Of a DNA stretch of 37,972 bases, positions 2,775-37,658 are shown piece after piece. This stretch comes from a virus. A program made the position numbers and the translations under genes. The notes under the pieces are model-generated. The model had not been told where the DNA came from. It ran no database searches and worked only from the letters and a program-made list of their open reading frames with translations. Location of the stretch: the IMG/VR virus record IMGVR_UViG_3300032224_000289, positions 1 to 37,972 of that record, one strand, 5' to 3'. Each line of letters opens with the position of its first letter. Within the stretch, counting starts at the first letter, position 1.

Positions 2775-3308
2775 ATGGAACTTAAAACAGAAGTTATCAA
2801 TATTGATGATTTACAACTAGACCCAAATAATGCACGAAAGCATAGTCAAAAGAATTTAGACGCTATTGCTAAATCGTTACAAACATTTGGACAACGCAAA
2901 CCAGTAGTAATAACTAATGAAAATGTTGTTGTTGCTGGTAACGGAACTTTAGAAGCCGCCAAACAAATTGGTTGGAAAGGTTTAGCAGTTGTCCGAGTAC
3001 CTGATGACTGGGACTCAGACACAATTAAGGCATACGCGCTCGCTGATAATCGTTCTGCTGAACTGGCATCGTGGGATACAGATATATTGCTTACCCAATT
3101 ACGAGAATTAAAACTTGAAGATTGGAATGTTGGCGATTTTGGCTTTAAAGATTTTGATTTAAAAACCAGAGAAGAAATTGATACTGGTATGAAAGAGATT
3201 GCCGAGCGTTACGAAGTTGTAATTGAGTGCGAAGATGAAAATGAACAAACTGCGCTACTACTGCGCTTATCGCAAGAAGGTTTGCGTGTAAGAGCAATAG
3301 TTATTTAA
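2775..3308 (+). CDS. ParB-like nuclease-fold protein, 177 aa
   Basis: The N-terminal 100 residues are a ParB/sulfiredoxin-fold domain: DLQLDPNNARKHSQKN, TFGQRKPVVI, VVAGNGTLEAAKQIGW and YALADNRSAEL. The C-terminal 40 residues end in an EVVIECEDENEQ...RLSQEGLRVRAI segment, as seen in phage ParB proteins that accompany DNA-modifying enzymes. There is no HTH like that of chromosome-partitioning ParB. It is preceded by a terminator and an AGAAAGGCA site. Neighbouring ABC-GNAT and zinc-ribbon genes suggest a role in base modification, perhaps recognising or nicking DNA; that role is inferred. Confidence 0.85.
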   Translation: MELKTEVINIDDLQLDPNNARKHSQKNLDAIAKSLQTFGQRKPVVITNENVVVAGNGTLEAAKQIGWKGLAVVRVPDDWDSDTIKAYALADNRSAELASWDTDILLTQLRELKLEDWNVGDFGFKDFDLKTREEIDTGMKEIAERYEVVIECEDENEQTALLLRLSQEGLRVRAIVI

Positions 3309-3313
3309 TAGAG

Positions 3314-3402
3314 TTAGGCAAAATGCCTGACACCACTTAGGCGAACAATAAGTAACCTAAGTAGAGTGCTGGACAAAGCCCTCATAGGTGAAAGTCTATG
3401 AG
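3314..3402 (+). ncRNA. Three-hairpin leader between parB-like and ABC-GNAT genes
   Basis: Three consecutive inverted repeats fill most of the gap: 3314-3320/3324-3330 (7 bp with one G·U pair), 3335-3341/3356-3362 (ACTTAGG/CCTAAGT), and 3381-3387/3396-3402 (CTCATAG/CTATGAG). No T-run follows, so it does not look like a simple terminator. It could be a structured 5' leader or a processed RNA. I recognise no known family. Confidence 0.4.
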
Positions 3403-3431
3403 AGTTATGTTCGGGGATAAGGGAAGGCGTA

Positions 3432-3527
3432 ATGAAAGAAATACTATGGCAATTACAAATGTATGTACTGGACTTAGAAATGCACAAATTCATATTGGAA
3501 TGGTTAATTAAATTGGGGTTATTATGA
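3432..3527 (+). CDS. 31-aa leader-type ORF
   Basis: The short frame begins MKEILWQLQMYVLDLEM, follows a strong GGGAAGG site and stops at TGA 3525-3527. The stop overlaps the ATG of the ABC-GNAT gene by four bases. The product is a hydrophobic/amphipathic helix. It may be a tiny protein in its own right, or exist to couple translation of the next gene, which has only a poor ribosome binding site of its own. Confidence 0.5.
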   Translation: MKEILWQLQMYVLDLEMHKFILEWLIKLGLL

Positions 3528-4654
3528 GCACAATTAGATTACAAACTGAAATAAATCGCACGCCTAGAGTAATGCAATTAGAGGGTATCTTTGACTTACA
3601 AGCCGCCAAAGTATCTATTACTGAAATTCCTAACAATATTCCAGACTTAGACACACGCGATTGGAATATAGGTTTAATTGTTGGACCTTCTGGCGCTGGT
3701 AAGACAACTATTGCCAGAGAAATGTTTAACAAAGAATTATTATCTACGGAAAAAATGTCGTGGGGTACTAGTAACGCCGTTATTGATGATTTCCCAAAGC
3801 CGTTATCAATTAAAGATATTACTGAATTACTATCTTCTGTTGGGTTTAGTAGTCCACCTGCATGGTTACGCCCATATGAAAATCTTTCCAATGGTGAGAA
3901 GTTCCGTGTATCTATGGCACGCGTATTGGCAGAAAGTACAGATATAGCAGTTGTAGATGAATTTACTTCCGTTATTGACCGTACAGTTGCACAAATAGGT
4001 TCAGCCGCTATTGCTAAGACCGTGCGAGCGCGTAATCAAAAGTTTGTTGCAGTATCTTGCCATTACGATATTGAAGAATGGCTTCAACCCGATTGGATTT
4101 ATCAGCCACATATCGGTCAATTTGTTTGGGGGTCGGTTCAACCCCGCCCACAAATCAATTGTGAAATCATTTGGGCGAAGTATGATGCGTGGGAACTCTT
4201 CCGCCGCCATCACTATCTAAGCGATGGTTTGAATAAGTCTGCACAGATATATGTGGGACTTGTAAATGACCAACCAGCAGTAATGACTGCAATATTGCCT
4301 CTTATTAACGCTAATGTTCGTAACGCACGCCGAATAAGTAGAACTGTTGTTCTGCCAGACTATCAAGGCATAGGTATCGGCGGAAGATTTGTGAACGCCG
4401 TTTGCGCTGGACTAAAGGGTCAGGGGTTAGATACTTATACGACCACATCTCACCCAGCACGCGTTAGGGCGTTGAATAAGAGTAAGGAGTGGGAGATGAT
4501 AAGAGAACCGTCCAGAGTGGCGCAAAGAGGTAAAACATCTTCTATAACTGGCAGATTAGGACTATCGCGTAGCCGAATAACTACTGGGTTTAAATATGCT
4601 GGAGAACCGAACTTTGAAATCGCCAAGATACTTTGTCCAAGACCAGTGAATTAA
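3524..4654 (+). CDS. ABC-type ATPase fused to GNAT/Mom-like acyltransferase
   Basis: This 376-aa protein joins two enzymes. Residues about 45-205 are an ABC ATPase: Walker A GPSGAGKT (54-61), signature LSNGE (121-125), Walker B VVDEF (143-147) and a switch histidine (H180). Residues about 212-376 are GNAT-like: FRRHHYLS, then RISRTVVLPDYQGIGIGGRF with the acyl-CoA loop QGIGIG (281-286), then TSHPARVRAL. Mom of phage Mu, which modifies adenine, is a GNAT-fold enzyme. The pairing with a ParB-like gene suggests DNA-base modification or protection against restriction. ATP use, substrate and acyl donor cannot be read from sequence. A tRNA or protein substrate is the alternative. Confidence 0.85.
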   Translation: MSTIRLQTEINRTPRVMQLEGIFDLQAAKVSITEIPNNIPDLDTRDWNIGLIVGPSGAGKTTIAREMFNKELLSTEKMSWGTSNAVIDDFPKPLSIKDITELLSSVGFSSPPAWLRPYENLSNGEKFRVSMARVLAESTDIAVVDEFTSVIDRTVAQIGSAAIAKTVRARNQKFVAVSCHYDIEEWLQPDWIYQPHIGQFVWGSVQPRPQINCEIIWAKYDAWELFRRHHYLSDGLNKSAQIYVGLVNDQPAVMTAILPLINANVRNARRISRTVVLPDYQGIGIGGRFVNAVCAGLKGQGLDTYTTTSHPARVRALNKSKEWEMIREPSRVAQRGKTSSITGRLGLSRSRITTGFKYAGEPNFEIAKILCPRPVN

Positions 4655-4689
4655 TGCTATATTTGTAGTGGATAATGGGGGTGTAAATA

Positions 4690-4857
4690 ATGCCGATGTA
4701 CCAGTTTCATTGTCCTAAGTGTGAAAAAGATATAGAAACATTTTTTGGGTTTAATGAAAAGCACGAAATAGATTGCGAAGATTGTAAAACACCTATGGAG
4801 AAAGTGTTCTTTGCAGTAGGTGTAATACTAAGAGGCACAGGTTGGGGTGGACAATGA
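4690..4857 (+). CDS. FmdB-type zinc-ribbon protein, 55 aa
   Basis: The frame begins MPMYQFHCPKCEKDIETFF, has a second CxxC (DCEDCK), and ends in LRGTGWGGQ. This is the hallmark of the FmdB/CxxC putative regulatory family, whose members start MPxYxYxCxxC and end in a glycine-rich GSGW-like segment. Two CxxC pairs would bind one zinc. It sits 35 bases after the ABC-GNAT gene and may be an accessory subunit of that module. The stop overlaps the next start (ATGA). Confidence 0.8.
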   Translation: MPMYQFHCPKCEKDIETFFGFNEKHEIDCEDCKTPMEKVFFAVGVILRGTGWGGQ

Positions 4858-5030: not shown

Positions 5031-5509
5031 TGCCAAAGAAAAGCAAAGTTAATCCAGAAACTTTGGAGAAAGAAGCAAAGGTTCTTGAACTAAGGCGTGG
5101 TGGGCTTACTTTTGACATGATTGCACAAAGATTAGGTTACGCGAGCGCTAGTGGCGCACACAAGGCTTATATGACCGCTTGTACACGCATTGTTTATGAT
5201 GATGTAGTTGAAACGCGTAATATTGAAATGGATAGATTAAATATTGCGCAGGCGGCAATATGGGGCGATGTTATTAACGGCACTACACCGCAAGATAGAT
5301 TTCGCGGTGTAATGGCACTAATGAAGATAATGGAACGGCGTGCCAGACTACTCGGTCTGGATATGCCTACTAAGGCACAGATAGAGGTAAACCTGTATGA
5401 CCGCGACACAATTGATGCAGAAGTCCAGCGACTTGTCACTCTCCTTGCTGGCGAGCCGACAAGTGCGTTGGAAGCACCAGTTAGCGAGACCAGAACAGAT
5501 ACCAACTGA
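5030..5509 (+). CDS. terS: Terminase small subunit
   Basis: The 159-aa product opens with basic residues and a helix-turn-helix (EKEAKVLELRRGGLTFDMIAQRLGY), then a helical oligomerisation region with ERRARLLGLDMP, and a disordered tail. This is the typical small terminase plan: recognition of the packaging site followed by oligomerisation. It directly precedes the large subunit, whose coding region starts 113 bases before this gene stops. No pac site can be assigned. Confidence 0.85.
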   Translation: MPKKSKVNPETLEKEAKVLELRRGGLTFDMIAQRLGYASASGAHKAYMTACTRIVYDDVVETRNIEMDRLNIAQAAIWGDVINGTTPQDRFRGVMALMKIMERRARLLGLDMPTKAQIEVNLYDRDTIDAEVQRLVTLLAGEPTSALEAPVSETRTDTN

Positions 5510-6743
5510 CGATAAAACTTGGACAACTTGGTTATATCTAGCAGGTCGTGGTGCAGGTAAGACACGCACGGCGGCAGAATGGTTAGCGTTTCAGGCATCT
5601 AGCAATCCCAAAACACGCTGGGCTATCGCCGCGCCAACATATTCAGATGTCCGTGATACTTGTGCAGAAGGACAATCAGGTATTGTTCAGATATTGCGCG
5701 AGTACGGCACATTAAAAGATTACAACCGTTCTATTGGAGAATTGTTTTTAACTAACGGCTCGCGCATCAAACTTTTTAGCGGTGAAGAACCAGACCGTTT
5801 CCGTGGACCACAATTTCACGGCGGTTGGTTTGATGAGTTGGCGGCATTTAAGTACCCAGATGCGTGGGACCAGTATCAATTTGGTCTGCGATTAGGTGAA
5901 TTCCCACAAACTATTGTTACAACTACGCCACGCCCAACAAAATTAATCAAAGACTTAATTGCAAGAGAAGGTGTGCGAGTAGTACGCGGTTCTACATTTG
6001 ATAATGCTAAGAACCTTGCGCCGTCTGCACTTGTGGAATTAAAGGCACGATATGAAAACACCAGACTTGGACGACAAGAGTTATATGGTGAAATTCTGGA
6101 CAATGTTGAAGGTGCATTATGGACTAGAGAGATGATTGAAACGGCAAGAGTTACAGAAGCACCGCCTTTGGTAAGAGTTGTAGTTGCCATTGACCCTGCC
6201 GTTACATCTAGTAGCACTAGCGATGAAACAGGTATTGTGTGCGCTGGTATATCAAGTGCAGGTGAATATTACATACTTGATGATAAGTCTTTGCGTGCTA
6301 GTCCAGACCAATGGGCAAGGCAAGCGGTAAATCTATATCACGAACATAAAGCCGACAAGATTGTTGCTGAAACAAATAACGGTGGCGATATGGTCATTAT
6401 GTTATTAAAACAGGTAGATGTTGGTATTGCGACAAAGAAAGTAACTGCCACTAGAGGCAAACAATTAAGAGCAGAACCTATATCTAGTTTGTACGAACAA
6501 GGCAAAGTGCATCACATTGGTTACTTTCCAGAATTAGAAAGCCAAATGTGCGAATGGACGCCTTTATCTAATGAAAGCCCAGATAGATTAGATGCGTTAG
6601 TGTGGGCATTAACAGAATTAAATAGCGGTGGTAGTAGTATGATTGCGTTAGCAAATATGGCATTATTGTGTCCTGTTTGCGGTATGCCATCACCTAAAAC
6701 GGCAACTATTTGCGATAAATGTGGCACCAATTTGAGAGGTTAA
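5397..6743 (+). CDS. terL: Terminase large subunit
   Basis: The ATPase domain shows Walker A GRGAGKT at residues 50-56 and GGWFDELAAF as Walker B. The C-terminal nuclease has VVVAIDPAV, AETNNGGDMV and DRLDALVWAL, supplying acidic metal ligands. It pumps DNA into the prohead and cuts it. ATG 5397 follows AGAGG at 5383. Later starts would remove the conserved LARPEQIP region just before Walker A. An unusual C-terminal tail, CPVCG...CDKCG, looks like a zinc ribbon appended after the nuclease. Length (448 aa) is normal. Confidence 0.96.
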   Translation: MTATQLMQKSSDLSLSLLASRQVRWKHQLARPEQIPTDDKTWTTWLYLAGRGAGKTRTAAEWLAFQASSNPKTRWAIAAPTYSDVRDTCAEGQSGIVQILREYGTLKDYNRSIGELFLTNGSRIKLFSGEEPDRFRGPQFHGGWFDELAAFKYPDAWDQYQFGLRLGEFPQTIVTTTPRPTKLIKDLIAREGVRVVRGSTFDNAKNLAPSALVELKARYENTRLGRQELYGEILDNVEGALWTREMIETARVTEAPPLVRVVVAIDPAVTSSSTSDETGIVCAGISSAGEYYILDDKSLRASPDQWARQAVNLYHEHKADKIVAETNNGGDMVIMLLKQVDVGIATKKVTATRGKQLRAEPISSLYEQGKVHHIGYFPELESQMCEWTPLSNESPDRLDALVWALTELNSGGSSMIALANMALLCPVCGMPSPKTATICDKCGTNLRG

Positions 6744-17091: not shown

Positions 17092-19829
17092 TGGCATCAT
17101 TTTTACCGCCAGCAATATTTGAAATTAAAGCAGTTGCCGACCAAGCAATCGCCGAATTTAAAAAGGTAAATGGCGAACTTGAAAAGATGGAAGATAAAGC
17201 CACTAAGGCTGGCGCAAGCGTATCTAAAATTGATAGCGCTAGTCGTATTGCTACTGCTGGTTTATTAGCGGCTGGTGCCGCATTTGCTGGTTTTGCGGCT
17301 ATTGGAATAAAAGAAGCAATGGACGCAGAAGTTCAATTAAATAAATTAGGACAAACACTTACAAACTTTGGCGTTAATACCGAAAAGAACCGCACACAAA
17401 TCAAAGAACTTACCGATAGTTATGTTGATTTAGGTTTTGGCGGAGATGTGGCTATGGGAGCGTTTAATACGTTACTTACCACAACAGGTGATTTAAGTAA
17501 ATCACAAGATTTGTTAGGACTTTCAGCTGATTTAGCAAGAGCAAAGCAAATTGATTTAGGTAGCGCAGCATCTATTTTATCTAAAGCAAGTATAGGTAAC
17601 GCAAAAGCATTTAAAGAAATGGGTATTGAATTAGATGCTAATTTACCTAAACAACAAGCAATAGATAAGGCTATGGCTCAATTAACCGCCAGAATTGGTG
17701 GACAAGCACAAGCGGCAACTAAAACTTTTGCGGTTCAATTACAAATCTTGAAAGAAAAAGTGTTAGATATTGCCGAAAGTTTAGGCGCAACTCTTATACC
17801 TATTATTCAAAAGTTTATAAGTTTTGTTGGCGACTCAATTAATTTTATTAAAAAACATAGTGAAGCATTTAAATTAATTGCAACTGTTATTGTTGGTGTA
17901 ACACTTGCTCTTGTTGCTTACAATGTAACTGTAAAAGTAGTTACTGCCGCAACTAAAGCGTGGACAGTTATTACTGGCATTGCTTCTGCCGCTACAAAAA
18001 TACTTAAAGGCGAACAAATGGCTCTCAATGCCACTATGAAAGCAAACCCAATCGGTTTGGTAATTGCAGGTTTAACGCTTTTGGGAGTCGCAGTTATTTA
18101 TCTTTGGAACAAATTTGAGTGGTTTCGCAAAGGCGTTGTAAAAGTTTTTCAAGTTGTAGTAAATGGCGTTGGTTATTTAATTGGTTATATTGGCACACTT
18201 CTTAATATTGTTTCTAAAGTGCCTAAAATTGGAGATAAATTTAAGGGCGCGGCAGAAGCGGTTAATAGTGCCGCTAATAAAGTACGCGAATTTAGCGATG
18301 GTTTAAATAAACTAGCCGATAAAAAAGTAAAAGTAGGCGTTGAACTAGCATCTCCACAAATTAGCGATTTTGGCGTAGGTACAAGCAAAGGTACTGGTAC
18401 AGGCGGTGGAACAAAACTAGACCCTAAAGTAAAAGCCGCTAATGAAAAATATATGGGTACTATAAAAGATTTACAGGACAAAATTCGCAGTGCAACAGAA
18501 AAGGCAAACGAAAAACTTATTGAGTTACAAATAGATTACGCAGATAAAGTTGCTAATTTACAAAGCGATGCATCAGACAAAATTACTCGCTTAATGCGTG
18601 ATGCCGATGAAAAACGGCTAAAGGCTAAAGTTGATATGGACAAAAAGATTACTGATGCGCAAAAGCGTTTTAATGACACTATGGCTGACCTAAATAAAAA
18701 GTTAGCCAAAGACCAAGCAAAACTTGAAGAAGATAACGCTAAAGCAATTCAAAATATTAAAAAAGAAAATGCAGATAAGTTACAAAGCATTGTTCAACAA
18801 TCTATTGACCGTCTAAGAGATGCCTTTAAAAACGGTACGGCATTTAGTGTAGGAGATTTATTCAAAGGGCTTGTAGAAAGTGGCAAAACTAGCGCAGATG
18901 ACTTAATTAAGGCACTTAGAACCAAACTTGATGGCGCTCGCTTACTTGCAGAAAACGCTGGCAGATTAGCCTCTTTAGGTTATTCACAAACATTTATTGA
19001 ACAAGTTGTAGCACAAGGACCCGATTTAGGTAACGCTTTAGCAACATCTTTGCTTAAATCTGGTACTGCAACCACAGATGAACTACAAACTATTTATAAA
19101 GAATTGGAAACGCTTAACGAAAGCGGATTAAATATTCTTGCATCAAAATTTAATGAAGGTAATGTTTTAGCAACATCTGAACTTAATACTGCATACGCGA
19201 GCGCAAAAGCAGAATTAGGCGTATTTTTAGCAGAACAACAATTACAATATCAAAATTCACAAGCAGAGTTAATGATTGCATTTACAGATGCTATGGCTGA
19301 GGCTGAAAAAACCAGAGATGATGCTATTGCCAACGCCAGAGCAGATTACGCCGAAACAATTGCAGAGATTAATAAACAACTTGCGCAAGATATTGCTGAT
19401 GTTCAAACTGAATTGGCTAAATCTATGGAAGATGCTCTTAAAGAGTACAACAAATCTGTTGCTGATGTTCAAAAAGAACTTTCTAAAGCACTTGCAGAAA
19501 TACAAAAAGTATTTCAAGAAAAATTGGCAAATATTACTAATGCGGTTAATGCAACTAAATCTGCAATCGCTTCACTCGTAACACAACTTCAACTTGCAAT
19601 TGCTCTTTCTGCTAGTTTGGCATCTAATCAGGCTAAAAGTCTTACAACTACTACAACCAGTAGTGGTGGTGGTACTACTGGTGGCGGAACTACTAAACAA
19701 ATTAATAACAACACTAATGTTCAAATTTCAACTACAAACTTAACAAGCCCACAAGAAGTTGCCAATGCTACTATTAGTGCTATCAAATATGGACAATCTG
19801 TACTTGTAGCACCTGTTGGAGCAGTCTGA
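17091..19829 (+). CDS. Tail tape measure protein
   Basis: At 912 aa this is the longest gene. It starts with coiled coil (FEIKAVADQAIAEFKKVNGE), continues with a TMP-like conserved region (DLGFGGDVAMGAFNTLLTTTGDLS), then hydrophobic segments (IATVIVGVTLALVAYNV; IGLVIAGLTLLGVAVIYLW). Two long heptad-like, lysine/alanine-rich coils lie around residues 450-570 and 720-850, before a Gly/Thr-rich linker. Tape length sets tail length; for a gene of this size a tail of roughly 130-140 nm would be expected. The two helices may help DNA cross the membrane. Confidence 0.93.
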   Translation: MASFLPPAIFEIKAVADQAIAEFKKVNGELEKMEDKATKAGASVSKIDSASRIATAGLLAAGAAFAGFAAIGIKEAMDAEVQLNKLGQTLTNFGVNTEKNRTQIKELTDSYVDLGFGGDVAMGAFNTLLTTTGDLSKSQDLLGLSADLARAKQIDLGSAASILSKASIGNAKAFKEMGIELDANLPKQQAIDKAMAQLTARIGGQAQAATKTFAVQLQILKEKVLDIAESLGATLIPIIQKFISFVGDSINFIKKHSEAFKLIATVIVGVTLALVAYNVTVKVVTAATKAWTVITGIASAATKILKGEQMALNATMKANPIGLVIAGLTLLGVAVIYLWNKFEWFRKGVVKVFQVVVNGVGYLIGYIGTLLNIVSKVPKIGDKFKGAAEAVNSAANKVREFSDGLNKLADKKVKVGVELASPQISDFGVGTSKGTGTGGGTKLDPKVKAANEKYMGTIKDLQDKIRSATEKANEKLIELQIDYADKVANLQSDASDKITRLMRDADEKRLKAKVDMDKKITDAQKRFNDTMADLNKKLAKDQAKLEEDNAKAIQNIKKENADKLQSIVQQSIDRLRDAFKNGTAFSVGDLFKGLVESGKTSADDLIKALRTKLDGARLLAENAGRLASLGYSQTFIEQVVAQGPDLGNALATSLLKSGTATTDELQTIYKELETLNESGLNILASKFNEGNVLATSELNTAYASAKAELGVFLAEQQLQYQNSQAELMIAFTDAMAEAEKTRDDAIANARADYAETIAEINKQLAQDIADVQTELAKSMEDALKEYNKSVADVQKELSKALAEIQKVFQEKLANITNAVNATKSAIASLVTQLQLAIALSASLASNQAKSLTTTTTSSGGGTTGGGTTKQINNNTNVQISTTNLTSPQEVANATISAIKYGQSVLVAPVGAV

Positions 19830-20686
19830 TGCCATTAACAAACGGATATTCTTTTTCATTTAACGGACAAGTATTTGGTGGCGCAGGTTCGCCATATCAA
19901 ATTCTTACTGTTGATGGTTTAGAAAGTATTCCAACAATCCGCAATCAAGACGACAATCGTGGTTATAACGATGGTATGTTTACAGGGCGCGATTTTCTTG
20001 GCGGCAGAACAATTAGCATTATATTTAACACTTTTGCTTCATCAACTGCTTCTGCGCAAGAAAATCTCAACACAATTCAAGGCAAATTATTACCACAATC
20101 TTCTGGCACAACGCCTCTTTACTTTTTAATTCCAGATGGAACTGGTAATGAACAATTTGTTAATGCTCGTGTGCGTATCTTTAGAACCACAGTTGATGTT
20201 AATTACACCTATGGTTACATAACCAGTCAAGTAGATTTCTTTTGTGCCGACCCACGCTATTACAACAGTACTTTAAACACCCTTTCCTTGACCGTAGGCG
20301 GCGGTTTGGGACGTGTTTACAACCGCACTTATAACTTGGTTTACCTAAATGGTGCGCCTTCTTATACAACTGTTACAAATACAGGCAGAACAGATACATA
20401 TCCCACAATTACATTTAACGGTCCTATTACAAACCCTATCTTTGGAAATGTTACACAAAGCAAATACATTTTCTTGAACGGCACTTTTGTTGATACAGAT
20501 ACTTGCGTAATAAATTTACAAAATCAGTTAATTACTTTAAATGGCAACCCTGCCAGAAATCTTATGCTTGGTGGTTCACAATGGTGGTCTGCTTCGCCTG
20601 GTGCTAACTCAATATTTTACTTTGGAACTGGTATTGTTAGCGGTACTACGGCGGCATCAATTTCTTGGTATAACGCGTTTATTTAG
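19829..20686 (+). CDS. Distal tail protein (Dit-like)
   Basis: The protein (285 aa) follows the tape measure by overlap and reads NGYSFSFNGQVFGGAGSPYQ, TVDGLESIPTIRNQD, DGMFTGRDFLGGRTISIIF and VDFFCADPRYYNSTLNTL. The ADPR.Y block and strand order are characteristic of siphovirus distal tail proteins, which form the hexameric ring at the tail tip. The C-terminal half is a β-sandwich (FNGPITNPIFGNVT). Confidence 0.88.
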   Translation: MPLTNGYSFSFNGQVFGGAGSPYQILTVDGLESIPTIRNQDDNRGYNDGMFTGRDFLGGRTISIIFNTFASSTASAQENLNTIQGKLLPQSSGTTPLYFLIPDGTGNEQFVNARVRIFRTTVDVNYTYGYITSQVDFFCADPRYYNSTLNTLSLTVGGGLGRVYNRTYNLVYLNGAPSYTTVTNTGRTDTYPTITFNGPITNPIFGNVTQSKYIFLNGTFVDTDTCVINLQNQLITLNGNPARNLMLGGSQWWSASPGANSIFYFGTGIVSGTTAASISWYNAFI

Positions 20687-35834: not shown

Positions 35835-36748
35835 AGATAGACGAAATACTTATCAAGGCACTTACCGCTTACGATGCAACACGAGAAAGGTCACTTCAAA
35901 AAGAGGTTGGCGTATCTCAGGTTGGCGGTTGTAGGAAGCAAGTATGGTTACAACTACAAGGTACAGTTAAAGAAAATACAACTCTTAAACTACCTTCATT
36001 AATGGGAACTGCTATCCATAAAATGATAGAAGAAGCACTCACTAGTGATAATGAACTTAACTGGAGCAATTACCAGTTAGAAAGAGAAGTTGAATGGGAC
36101 GGTTTGAAGGGTCATATAGATTTATTCATTCCCGATATTGGCGCAGTTGTAGATTGGAAAACTACAAAGTTAAAAAATATGGATTATTTTCCTAGTAAAC
36201 AACAACGCTGGCAGGTACAACTCTATGGTTATTTATTAGAAATGAATGGAGAGAAACCTAAAACTGTAACACTTGTAGCAATTCCGCGTGATGGTGACGA
36301 AAGACAAATCAAAATACACACGGAAGAATACAATCGGGAAATATGCGTGGAAGCACTTACTTGGTTAGATGAAGTAAAGGCAATGAAAGAACCACCAGCA
36401 CCCGAAAGATTTGCTGCTCAATTCTGCCAACACTATTGCTCATATTATGGAACTGCGTGTAGTGGCAAGGGAAAAGATATTCCGCTAGACCCAATTACAG
36501 ATGAAGTAATTATCCAAGCGGTTAAACAATATCTGCAACTTTCTTCTGAGATTAAAGAGAAAGAAACCGCCAGAGATGGCGTCAAAGCGGCACTAGAAAA
36601 TATCAATGGGGTTATACCTGACGGCACAAAAGTTGCTTGGTCACAAGTCGCAGGTCGTAGCAGTATTGATGAAGAAGCCGTCAAATTGGCTATGGGTGAA
36701 GTGCCAAAGAAAGTTGGAGAACCTTCTATGAGATTAACGGTCAAATAA
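35831..36748 (+). CDS. Cas4/RecB-like PD-(D/E)XK exonuclease
   Basis: The GTG start overlaps the preceding stop. The 305-aa protein has Cys34 in VGGCRKQVW, then a helix, GHIDLFIPD, VVDWKTTK (the D...DxK catalytic pair) and QVQLYGYLLEM. A cysteine cluster, FCQHYCSYYGTAC, would join Cys34 in binding an iron-sulfur cluster, as in Cas4 and AddB-type nucleases. It is the likely strand-resecting partner of RecT. The C-terminal 70 residues are helical. Confidence 0.88.
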   Translation: MKIDEILIKALTAYDATRERSLQKEVGVSQVGGCRKQVWLQLQGTVKENTTLKLPSLMGTAIHKMIEEALTSDNELNWSNYQLEREVEWDGLKGHIDLFIPDIGAVVDWKTTKLKNMDYFPSKQQRWQVQLYGYLLEMNGEKPKTVTLVAIPRDGDERQIKIHTEEYNREICVEALTWLDEVKAMKEPPAPERFAAQFCQHYCSYYGTACSGKGKDIPLDPITDEVIIQAVKQYLQLSSEIKEKETARDGVKAALENINGVIPDGTKVAWSQVAGRSSIDEEAVKLAMGEVPKKVGEPSMRLTVK

Positions 36749-36852
36749 TGACACAAAAACTTATTCAAGTTATTTGTTTTCATTGCGCTAAAAAATACTT
36801 AATTCCAGAAAAGGAAATAAGAGTTGCAAATTACTGTTGGGAGTGCAAATAA
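36748..36852 (+). CDS. Zinc-ribbon microprotein, 34 aa
   Basis: A short frame, overlapping both neighbours by one base (TAATG at each side), encodes KLIQVICFHCAKKYLIPE then YCWECK. Two CxxC pairs form a small zinc-binding unit. The tight coupling between the exonuclease and initiator genes makes it likely to be translated. Confidence 0.6.
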   Translation: MTQKLIQVICFHCAKKYLIPEKEIRVANYCWECK

Positions 36853-37658
36853 TGGCGTGGATAAAGATTGACGACAGTTTTCCCGACCACCCAAAGGTAA
36901 TTGGTTTATCTGATAAAGCCTTCCGCATACATATTGAAGGGTTATGTTATAGCGGTAGGTTTCTTACAGATGGATTAATACCAATGGGAGTTGCCGCACG
37001 ATTTGCTAACGAAAATATGGCACTTCTAACGGAACTTACAACGATTGAATTATGGCGTAAAGATGTTGCTAATAATGGTTTTCGTATTCACGATTACTTA
37101 GCACACCAAACTTCTAAACAACAAGTAGAAGAAAAACGCCAGAACCTAAGAGAAAGGCAAAAGCGTTACCGAGAGAAACACGCACAAACCGAAGAACCAT
37201 CTATTGATGATGGTTGGGATAACGCGTTAATAACAGAGCCAGAATACAGAACACAGAATACAGAATACATAAAACAGAATACAGATATACAACTACCTTC
37301 CCCAAGAGTTAAAACTGCGGCATTAGCCGTAAGTAATATCTCAAACAAACTTGCAGAAGCAAGAGCCAATGGAATAAATGCGTGGAACTTATCTAAGTTA
37401 GTGGAAGAGGAATGGGATAAGTTACATAACGCAAATGATATTGGCGGTTGTATAGCACTTACTGCTTGGTATGTAGCAGAACTACAAACTCGGCAATTAA
37501 GTAGTACCGAGATAGGCAGAATAGGTCAAATGACTAAACGGTTTGGGCGTATTGCTTTATTAGCCATTGATGAAGCGGCGAGTAAAGATTTAACCGATTT
37601 AGTAAGTTACGCATACCGCGTGGCGCAAAATATGTATAAAGAAAGGCAAGGCAAATGA
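36852..37658 (+). CDS. Replication initiator-like protein with embedded iterons
   Basis: ATG 36852 is chosen by coupling; the in-frame start 15 bases upstream lies inside the zinc-ribbon gene. The N-terminal domain (AWIKIDDSFPDHPKVIGL, AFRIHIEGLCYSGRFLTDG) is the winged-helix head of phage replisome organisers. A charged linker (QNLRERQKRYREKHAQ) leads to residues TQNTEYIKQNTDIQ, whose DNA carries four AGAATACA iterons. A C-terminal helical domain (IGRIGQMTKRFGRIALLAI) would contact a host helicase loader or helicase. Lambda O has the same plan. Confidence 0.82.
   Translation: MAWIKIDDSFPDHPKVIGLSDKAFRIHIEGLCYSGRFLTDGLIPMGVAARFANENMALLTELTTIELWRKDVANNGFRIHDYLAHQTSKQQVEEKRQNLRERQKRYREKHAQTEEPSIDDGWDNALITEPEYRTQNTEYIKQNTDIQLPSPRVKTAALAVSNISNKLAEARANGINAWNLSKLVEEEWDKLHNANDIGGCIALTAWYVAELQTRQLSSTEIGRIGQMTKRFGRIALLAIDEAASKDLTDLVSYAYRVAQNMYKERQGK
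37241..37283 (+). repeat. Iterons inside initiator gene; candidate replication origin
   Basis: AGAATACA occurs four times in 43 bases, at 37241-37248, 37255-37262, 37262-37269 and 37276-37283. The unit spacing of 14, 7 and 14 bases is regular. AT-rich DNA follows. Clustered repeats inside an initiator gene are the usual place of a theta origin in lambda-like phages. Confidence 0.65.

Follow-up and report, generated by a model that had tools for sequence, protein, structure and literature searches.

Fusions of an ABC ATPase to an acetyltransferase occur in the archaeal COG2401. In phages, proteins combining a GNAT domain with an ABC ATPase were predicted to acylate DNA bases in a passage of Iyer et al. 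(PMC7824862), and a homologous fusion is found in the pT24 / PHROG 11143 system, named here after Tenacibaculum phage pT24. The best model of how a chain of this architecture could act on nucleic acid is TmcA, in which the cytidine to be modified is handed to the GNAT domain by the ATPase domain (PMC4234376). Like the phage fusions, TmcA/NAT10 carry the ATPase followed by the GNAT domain in one chain, but they differ in having a Helicase_RecD-type ATPase, an RNA substrate, a tRNA-binding domain and no ParB partner. Mom, from phage Mu and relatives (PF25680, PHROG 1384), shares the GNAT fold with the phage fusions and acts on DNA, without an ABC domain. CmoA, CmoX and CmoY are different enzymes, using carboxy-SAM chemistry at C5 of cytosine; CmoX often has ParB-domain neighbors, the function of which was called unknown in a 2025 study (PMC12783734).

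Composition of the locus

The stretch of DNA analyzed here (37,972 nt, an entire IMG/VR virus record, hereafter referred to as the window) belongs to a virus of bacteria and encodes, in succession, a ParB-like protein, a fusion of ABC ATPase and GNAT acyltransferase (ABC-GNAT) and an FmdB-type zinc ribbon, the open reading frames of which lie where the original prediction had placed them. The relevant features are as follows.

About 2713-2751, + strand: possible terminator hairpin preceding the ParB gene (stem of 12 bp, -25.7 kcal/mol, z -3.2)
2775-3308, + strand: ParB-like protein, 177 aa, very likely partner of ABC-GNAT (PHROG 620 match, ParB/Noc fold, recurrent upstream position)
3204-3305, + strand: ParB residues 144-177, a C-terminal tail that may dock ABC-GNAT (tail profile)
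3309-3415, + strand: structured RNA element between the ParB and ABC-GNAT genes (fold z, covariation)
3524-4654, + strand: ABC ATPase and GNAT acyltransferase fusion, 376 aa (PHROG 11143; predicted model)
3524-4138, + strand: ABC-type ATPase domain, residues about 1-205 (invariant motifs; structure match)
3683-3709, + strand: Walker A, residues 54-62
3884-3898, + strand: LSNGE, residues 121-125
Ending at 3961, + strand: Walker B with E146
4061-4063, + strand: H-loop, H180
4139-4651, + strand: GNAT domain, residues about 206-376 (structure match to GNATs; Mom-like HHY region)
4208-4216, + strand: HHY, residues 229-231
4364-4381, + strand: QGIGIG acetyl-CoA loop, residues 281-286
4690-4857, + strand: FmdB-type zinc ribbon, 55 aa (TIGR02605, 46 bits)
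5397-6743, + strand: large terminase, anchor of the slot survey (PF03237/PF17289)

Assignment of the first gene to the ParB fold, as originally proposed, is borne out both by its match to PHROG 620 (135 bits) and by its predicted structure, which resembles ParB/Noc structures and includes the ParB N-terminal fold. The second gene product matches PHROG 11143 (358 bits, residues 4-362), with both ABC ATPase and GNAT features, and shares 35% identity over 99% of its length with the pT24 protein. Because of this homology, proteins of this kind are already known as a prediction, and the system has less novelty than originally supposed, given PHROG 11143 and the predictive passage in print (PMC7824862).

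The single chain does carry, as first described, all ABC motifs (Walker A, LSNGE, Walker B and H-loop) followed by a C-terminal GNAT domain with QGIGIG, and no domain beyond these two was seen in its 376 residues. Across 30 aligned relatives, G54, G59, K60, S122, G124, D145, E146 and H180 of the ABC domain are invariant, as are H230 and Y231 of the GNAT domain. Both genes are under strong purifying selection, with dN/dS of about 0.08-0.15 for ABC-GNAT and about 0.06-0.22 for ParB. The predicted ABC-GNAT model (pLDDT 83) aligns its ABC domain to ABC ATPases with Z up to 14.9 and its GNAT domain to GNATs with Z 13.6-14.2; the solved structures best matching the latter are protein or small-molecule acetyltransferases, RimI among them, and the GNAT fold is generic. 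A Foldseek search with the same model retrieved TmcA (2zpa) among ABC ATPases at 9e-7, spanning both domains, at rank 43 and with an rmsd of 14. Scanning cellular genomes with ABC-GNAT returned generic ABC ATPases only.

The genes had been described as bounded upstream by a terminator. A strong hairpin is indeed present 5' of the ParB gene; it lacks a consensus T-run, and a terminator scan did not list it.

The RNA element between the two genes (about 105 nt, with conserved GAAACATAAGTA and GAGTGCTGGAC...GTTC) shows a fold z of -4.4 and covariation in 9 of 23 pairs, and matched no Rfam family. Its model scores the window copy at 104 bits, this copy being one of the training sequences. Further copies were found in nine loci (L003, L007, L010, L012, L018, L022, L033, L035 and L095) and in 45 viral contigs (L227-L271). 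The element precedes ABC-GNAT in some phages and is missing from the same junction in close relatives; in other phages, without ABC-GNAT, it lies ~34 nt 5' of the small terminase gene, and in a third group directly 3' of a 118-aa HNH gene. Com regulates mom, and a comparable role of the element as regulator of ABC-GNAT was considered and rejected, since its occurrence before small terminase and behind HNH genes shows that it is not specific to ABC-GNAT. It is therefore no defining component of the module and is possibly a mobile or leader element. Elsewhere in the window, the beta-globin CoTC ribozyme family of Rfam was hit at 19821-19963 with 32.5 bits, below its gathering threshold of 58 and most likely by chance.

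Recurrence of the ParB gene and its C-terminal tail

The original prediction would have been undermined had a parB-like neighbor failed to recur in related genomes. In 80 viral loci related to the ABC-GNAT fusion, a ParB gene was found directly 5' of ABC-GNAT in nearly every locus having upstream sequence, including ParBs missed at first ORF calling and recovered by a six-frame profile search. This order is kept by nearly all relatives, including those with as little as 45% identity, extends to phages with terminases not recognizably related to that of the window, and commonly comes with a gene overlap of 4 or 22 bases, as counted from the starts of the longest ORFs. In two loci (L058 and L063) ParB, ABC and GNAT form a single chain, and in Lactococcus P335 ABC and GNAT are separate, overlapping genes 3' of ParB. 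Besides P335, the pair is present in the cultured phages Leptospira LE4, Arthrobacter EastWest, Gordonia Jace and Pasteurella Pmp13, and the annotated EastWest, LE4 and Pmp13 genomes show the same gene order. For Tenacibaculum pT24 and Aeromonas PX29 no recognizable ParB was seen adjoining ABC-GNAT; the window system differs from that of pT24 in that its phage is small, its genes lie next to the terminase and its ABC-GNAT has a ParB partner. Taken together, ParB is very likely a functional partner of ABC-GNAT.

The FmdB zinc ribbon is missing from most relatives. It was therefore left out of the module, and of the three genes originally proposed to form one unit only ParB and ABC-GNAT stand as such.

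Two further loci are of note for their composition. Salmonella phage SSU5 (L102, 97201-103299) encodes two ParB proteins and an ABC ATPase of 212 aa, together with two further proteins of 84 and 296 aa, the larger of which weakly resembles GNATs; annotated as an ABC transporter, this locus is probably a split, divergent ABC-GNAT module in phage-plasmids. Aeromonas phage PX29 (L108; record position 36534-36878) has two modification systems, one Mom-like and one ABC-GNAT.

Among ParBs without an ABC-GNAT, those most closely related to the window protein either form fusions with DNA methyltransferases or precede a Mom homolog. The identity of these ParB-associated Mom proteins is secure, as judged by PHROG 1384 and by similarity to Mu-type Mom proteins and to the Mom structure 8bv8, and of 34 loci found with this Mom, 32 have ParB immediately 5' of it; in the remaining two, the contig extends little or not at all upstream.

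ABC-GNAT-paired ParBs share a conserved C-terminal stretch of about 34 residues, even where their ParB domains diverge strongly. A profile of this tail, built from ABC-GNAT partners alone and hence silent on tails specific to other enzymes, identified it in 74 of 78 ParBs (72 of 76 ABC-GNAT partners and both fusions), counts that include near-copies. Of the four misses, one is a truncated ORF (L083), one is the LE4 protein, which is divergent, and two are the ParBs of SSU5. None of the 41 ParBs associated with other enzymes (26 preceding Mom, 8 fused to a methyltransferase, 4 preceding CmoA/CmoX and 3 preceding TET/JBP) matched the profile, and neither did any other protein of the fetched loci. 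The window ParB is 48% identical to the Mom-paired ParB (alignment A1) and 21-38% identical to many ABC-GNAT partners, which indicates that the tail tracks the enzyme and not ParB ancestry. Such behavior is what would be expected of a docking segment, for which the tail is a candidate.

Gene content of the slot before the terminase

To place the pair in its genomic setting, loci were collected with the large terminase as an anchor independent of the ABC-GNAT finding. The survey covered the best 80 of 191 terminase hits and defined the slot as the interval between replication-type genes and the terminase, in loci with at least 1.8 kb of upstream sequence and a terminase 62-97% identical to that of the window. 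In 53 of the resulting 54 loci, which include near-copies, the slot holds a DNA-modification system. Among these 53 loci, drawn from the best 80 of 191 hits, ABC-GNAT accounts for 33, CmoA/CmoX for 9, a TET/JBP-like oxygenase for 5, a ParB-methyltransferase for 4, and a methyltransferase and a ParB-methyltransferase-PLP fusion for one each, the last (L213) being labeled 'other' by the script and assigned through Pfam. The 54th locus (L226) has a Mom gene nearby, further upstream and ahead of a RusA gene. An additional locus (L101), where a ParB-methyltransferase precedes a more distantly related terminase, was found via ParB and excluded from the 54; at 97% terminase identity, the 55 loci collapse to 35. 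More distant phages (terminase 57-61%), sampled through the RNA element, showed no such gene in the slot.

Pfam searches confirmed C5 methylase, Asn synthase, amino acid:DNA transferase, PLP enzyme and Mom in the surveyed loci; the Tet_JBP match falls just under its curated cut-off (31.5 vs. 34.9 bits). The slot CmoA matches 4gek at 2e-31 and the slot CmoX matches 8YF3, a proven carboxymethyltransferase, at 9e-67. CmoA/CmoX resemble ABC-GNAT in that this phage lineage carries them, too, in the slot, and in that they frequently have a ParB-domain neighbor. The terminase tree implies at least six switches of slot contents (L226 and L101 included; best 80 of 191 hits), among them a well-supported one in which an ABC-GNAT locus (L192) is sister to two CmoA/CmoX loci (L188 and L200) with 97/98 support. 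With its slot exchanged among DNA-modifying enzymes and ParB as its recurrent partner, DNA modification by the pair is well supported. This part of the original reading persists, while the inclusion of FmdB in the module does not.

Several individual loci are also worth recording. The similarly arranged Porphyromonas gingivalis phages 008a and 012a (L152 and L153) differ in what follows their tail genes: at this position one has ABC-GNAT and the other a Mom-like acetyltransferase, which may represent a further exchange that took place independently. An asparagine-synthase-like gene adjoins CmoA/CmoX in L200 (1068-1943) and L212 (113-973), and its product is a candidate amide-forming enzyme acting on carboxymethylcytosine. 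Within a single chain of 768 aa, the fusion in L213 (2104-4410) joins ParB to pieces of an N6/N4 methyltransferase and to a PLP-dependent (PALP) enzyme. One genome (L222) has two modification systems, a methyltransferase and ABC-GNAT.

Proposed activity of the ParB/ABC-GNAT pair

The comparison shows constant pairing, slot exchange, tail specificity and intact motifs. Restriction-digest data were not found in the LE3/LE4 phage paper. The best reading of the locus is an ATP-coupled, ParB-assisted acyltransferase on phage DNA, for which we infer the DNA substrate, the complex, the chemistry, the role of ATP and the benefit. A complex of ParB and ABC-GNAT would probably act on the phage's own genome ahead of packaging and modify its bases by acyl transfer. 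That DNA is the substrate appears quite likely, and transfer of the acyl group to an exocyclic amine reasonably so. ATP coupling may, by analogy, follow TmcA, with nearly as much to be said for it as against it, and we would only tentatively call the pair a DNA counterpart of TmcA/NAT10, in which ParB is a DNA-engaging adaptor common to many DNA-modifying enzymes of phages, fitted here with an enzyme-specific docking tail. Slot exchange, the partner tail and the three-domain fusion are evidence added to the earlier prediction, and the 2013 source may already mention some of it.

In the proposed mechanism, the ParB-fold protein would engage DNA and recruit ABC-GNAT via its C-terminal tail. Two ABC domains would then sandwich ATP as a dimer, on the DNA or beside it, so that a base is exposed or delivered, much as the TmcA ATPase delivers cytidine to its GNAT domain. 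From acetyl-CoA or a different acyl-CoA, the GNAT domain would pass the acyl group to an exocyclic amine, N6 of adenine and N4 of cytosine being the likeliest sites. HHY would lie near the acceptor, and the modified genome would presumably escape host restriction. The idea of an ATPase 'scanning' DNA, put forward originally, is a guess, and TmcA-like ATP-coupled acyl transfer accounts for the ATPase at least as well.

The strongest alternative is that the pair modifies DNA by Mom-like chemistry (carbamoylmethyl or other non-acyl), with HHY as a catalytic or metal site. The HHY region of ABC-GNAT scores 32.5 against the Mom profile, higher than any control profile or any of 150 column shuffles; against Mom, RimI and TmcA do not rise above background. 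The H-Y pair, which we take to be part of the Mom active site, precedes the central sheet, is invariant in Mom as in the ABC-GNAT family and aligns in register, and Mom holds the same ParB partnership. Overall sequence similarity to Mom is weak: an initial profile comparison gave a probability of 1%, and deeper profiles with controls gave 46%, for which reason we claim the link at the motif level only. PF25680, which scores a real Mom protein at 151 bits, is not among the 25 best Pfam families listed for ABC-GNAT (E up to 1), and the RNSESRA motif of Mom is absent from the GNAT domain, which has the classical QGxGxG loop in its place. Mom 8bv8 was not listed in the VIA-align results for the ABC-GNAT model; since ABC domains fill that list, its absence proves nothing. 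Membership in the Mom family was therefore rejected for want of PF25680 among the Pfam families listed and in view of the classical acetyl-CoA loop. The GNAT domain combines the usual loop, as in RimI and TmcA, with a Mom-like HHY region, so that the analogy to Mom drawn originally extends to the HHY motif and the ParB partnership and fails for family match and loop motif. On balance, Mom-like chemistry is unlikely.

Acylation of a protein (host RNA polymerase, a restriction enzyme or a phage protein), with the ABC domain as a regulatory switch, would agree with RimI being among the best solved matches, and a phage GNAT acetylating RNA polymerase does exist according to a passage of the same source (PMC7824862). 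The exchange of the slot with several kinds of DNA-modifying systems, and the constant presence of a ParB that is elsewhere linked to DNA modification, make it improbable. Less probable still is acetylation of RNA (tRNA/rRNA) in the manner of TmcA/NAT10, or action on acyl-tRNA: the domain order and the structural match to TmcA speak for it, and the chain shows no RNA-binding domain and keeps the company of DNA-modification genes and a ParB partner. Finally, a partition or transporter-like pair, in which ParB segregates a plasmid, the ABC ATPase transports and GNAT is incidental, echoes the database names 'ABC iron siderophore transporter' and 'ParB-like partition protein' and is scarcely credible, as no conserved membrane protein or permease was found beside the pair in the relatives' neighborhoods, many members adjoin the terminase, and ABC and GNAT co-occur even as two split genes.

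If DNA acylation by the ParB/ABC-GNAT pair is correct, phages would own an energy-coupled form of DNA acylation, which we could trace in earlier work only as a prediction. ParB domains would then constitute a general platform for DNA-modifying enzymes, and the presence of ParB as a hitherto unexplained companion of phage methyltransferases and CmoX would be accounted for.
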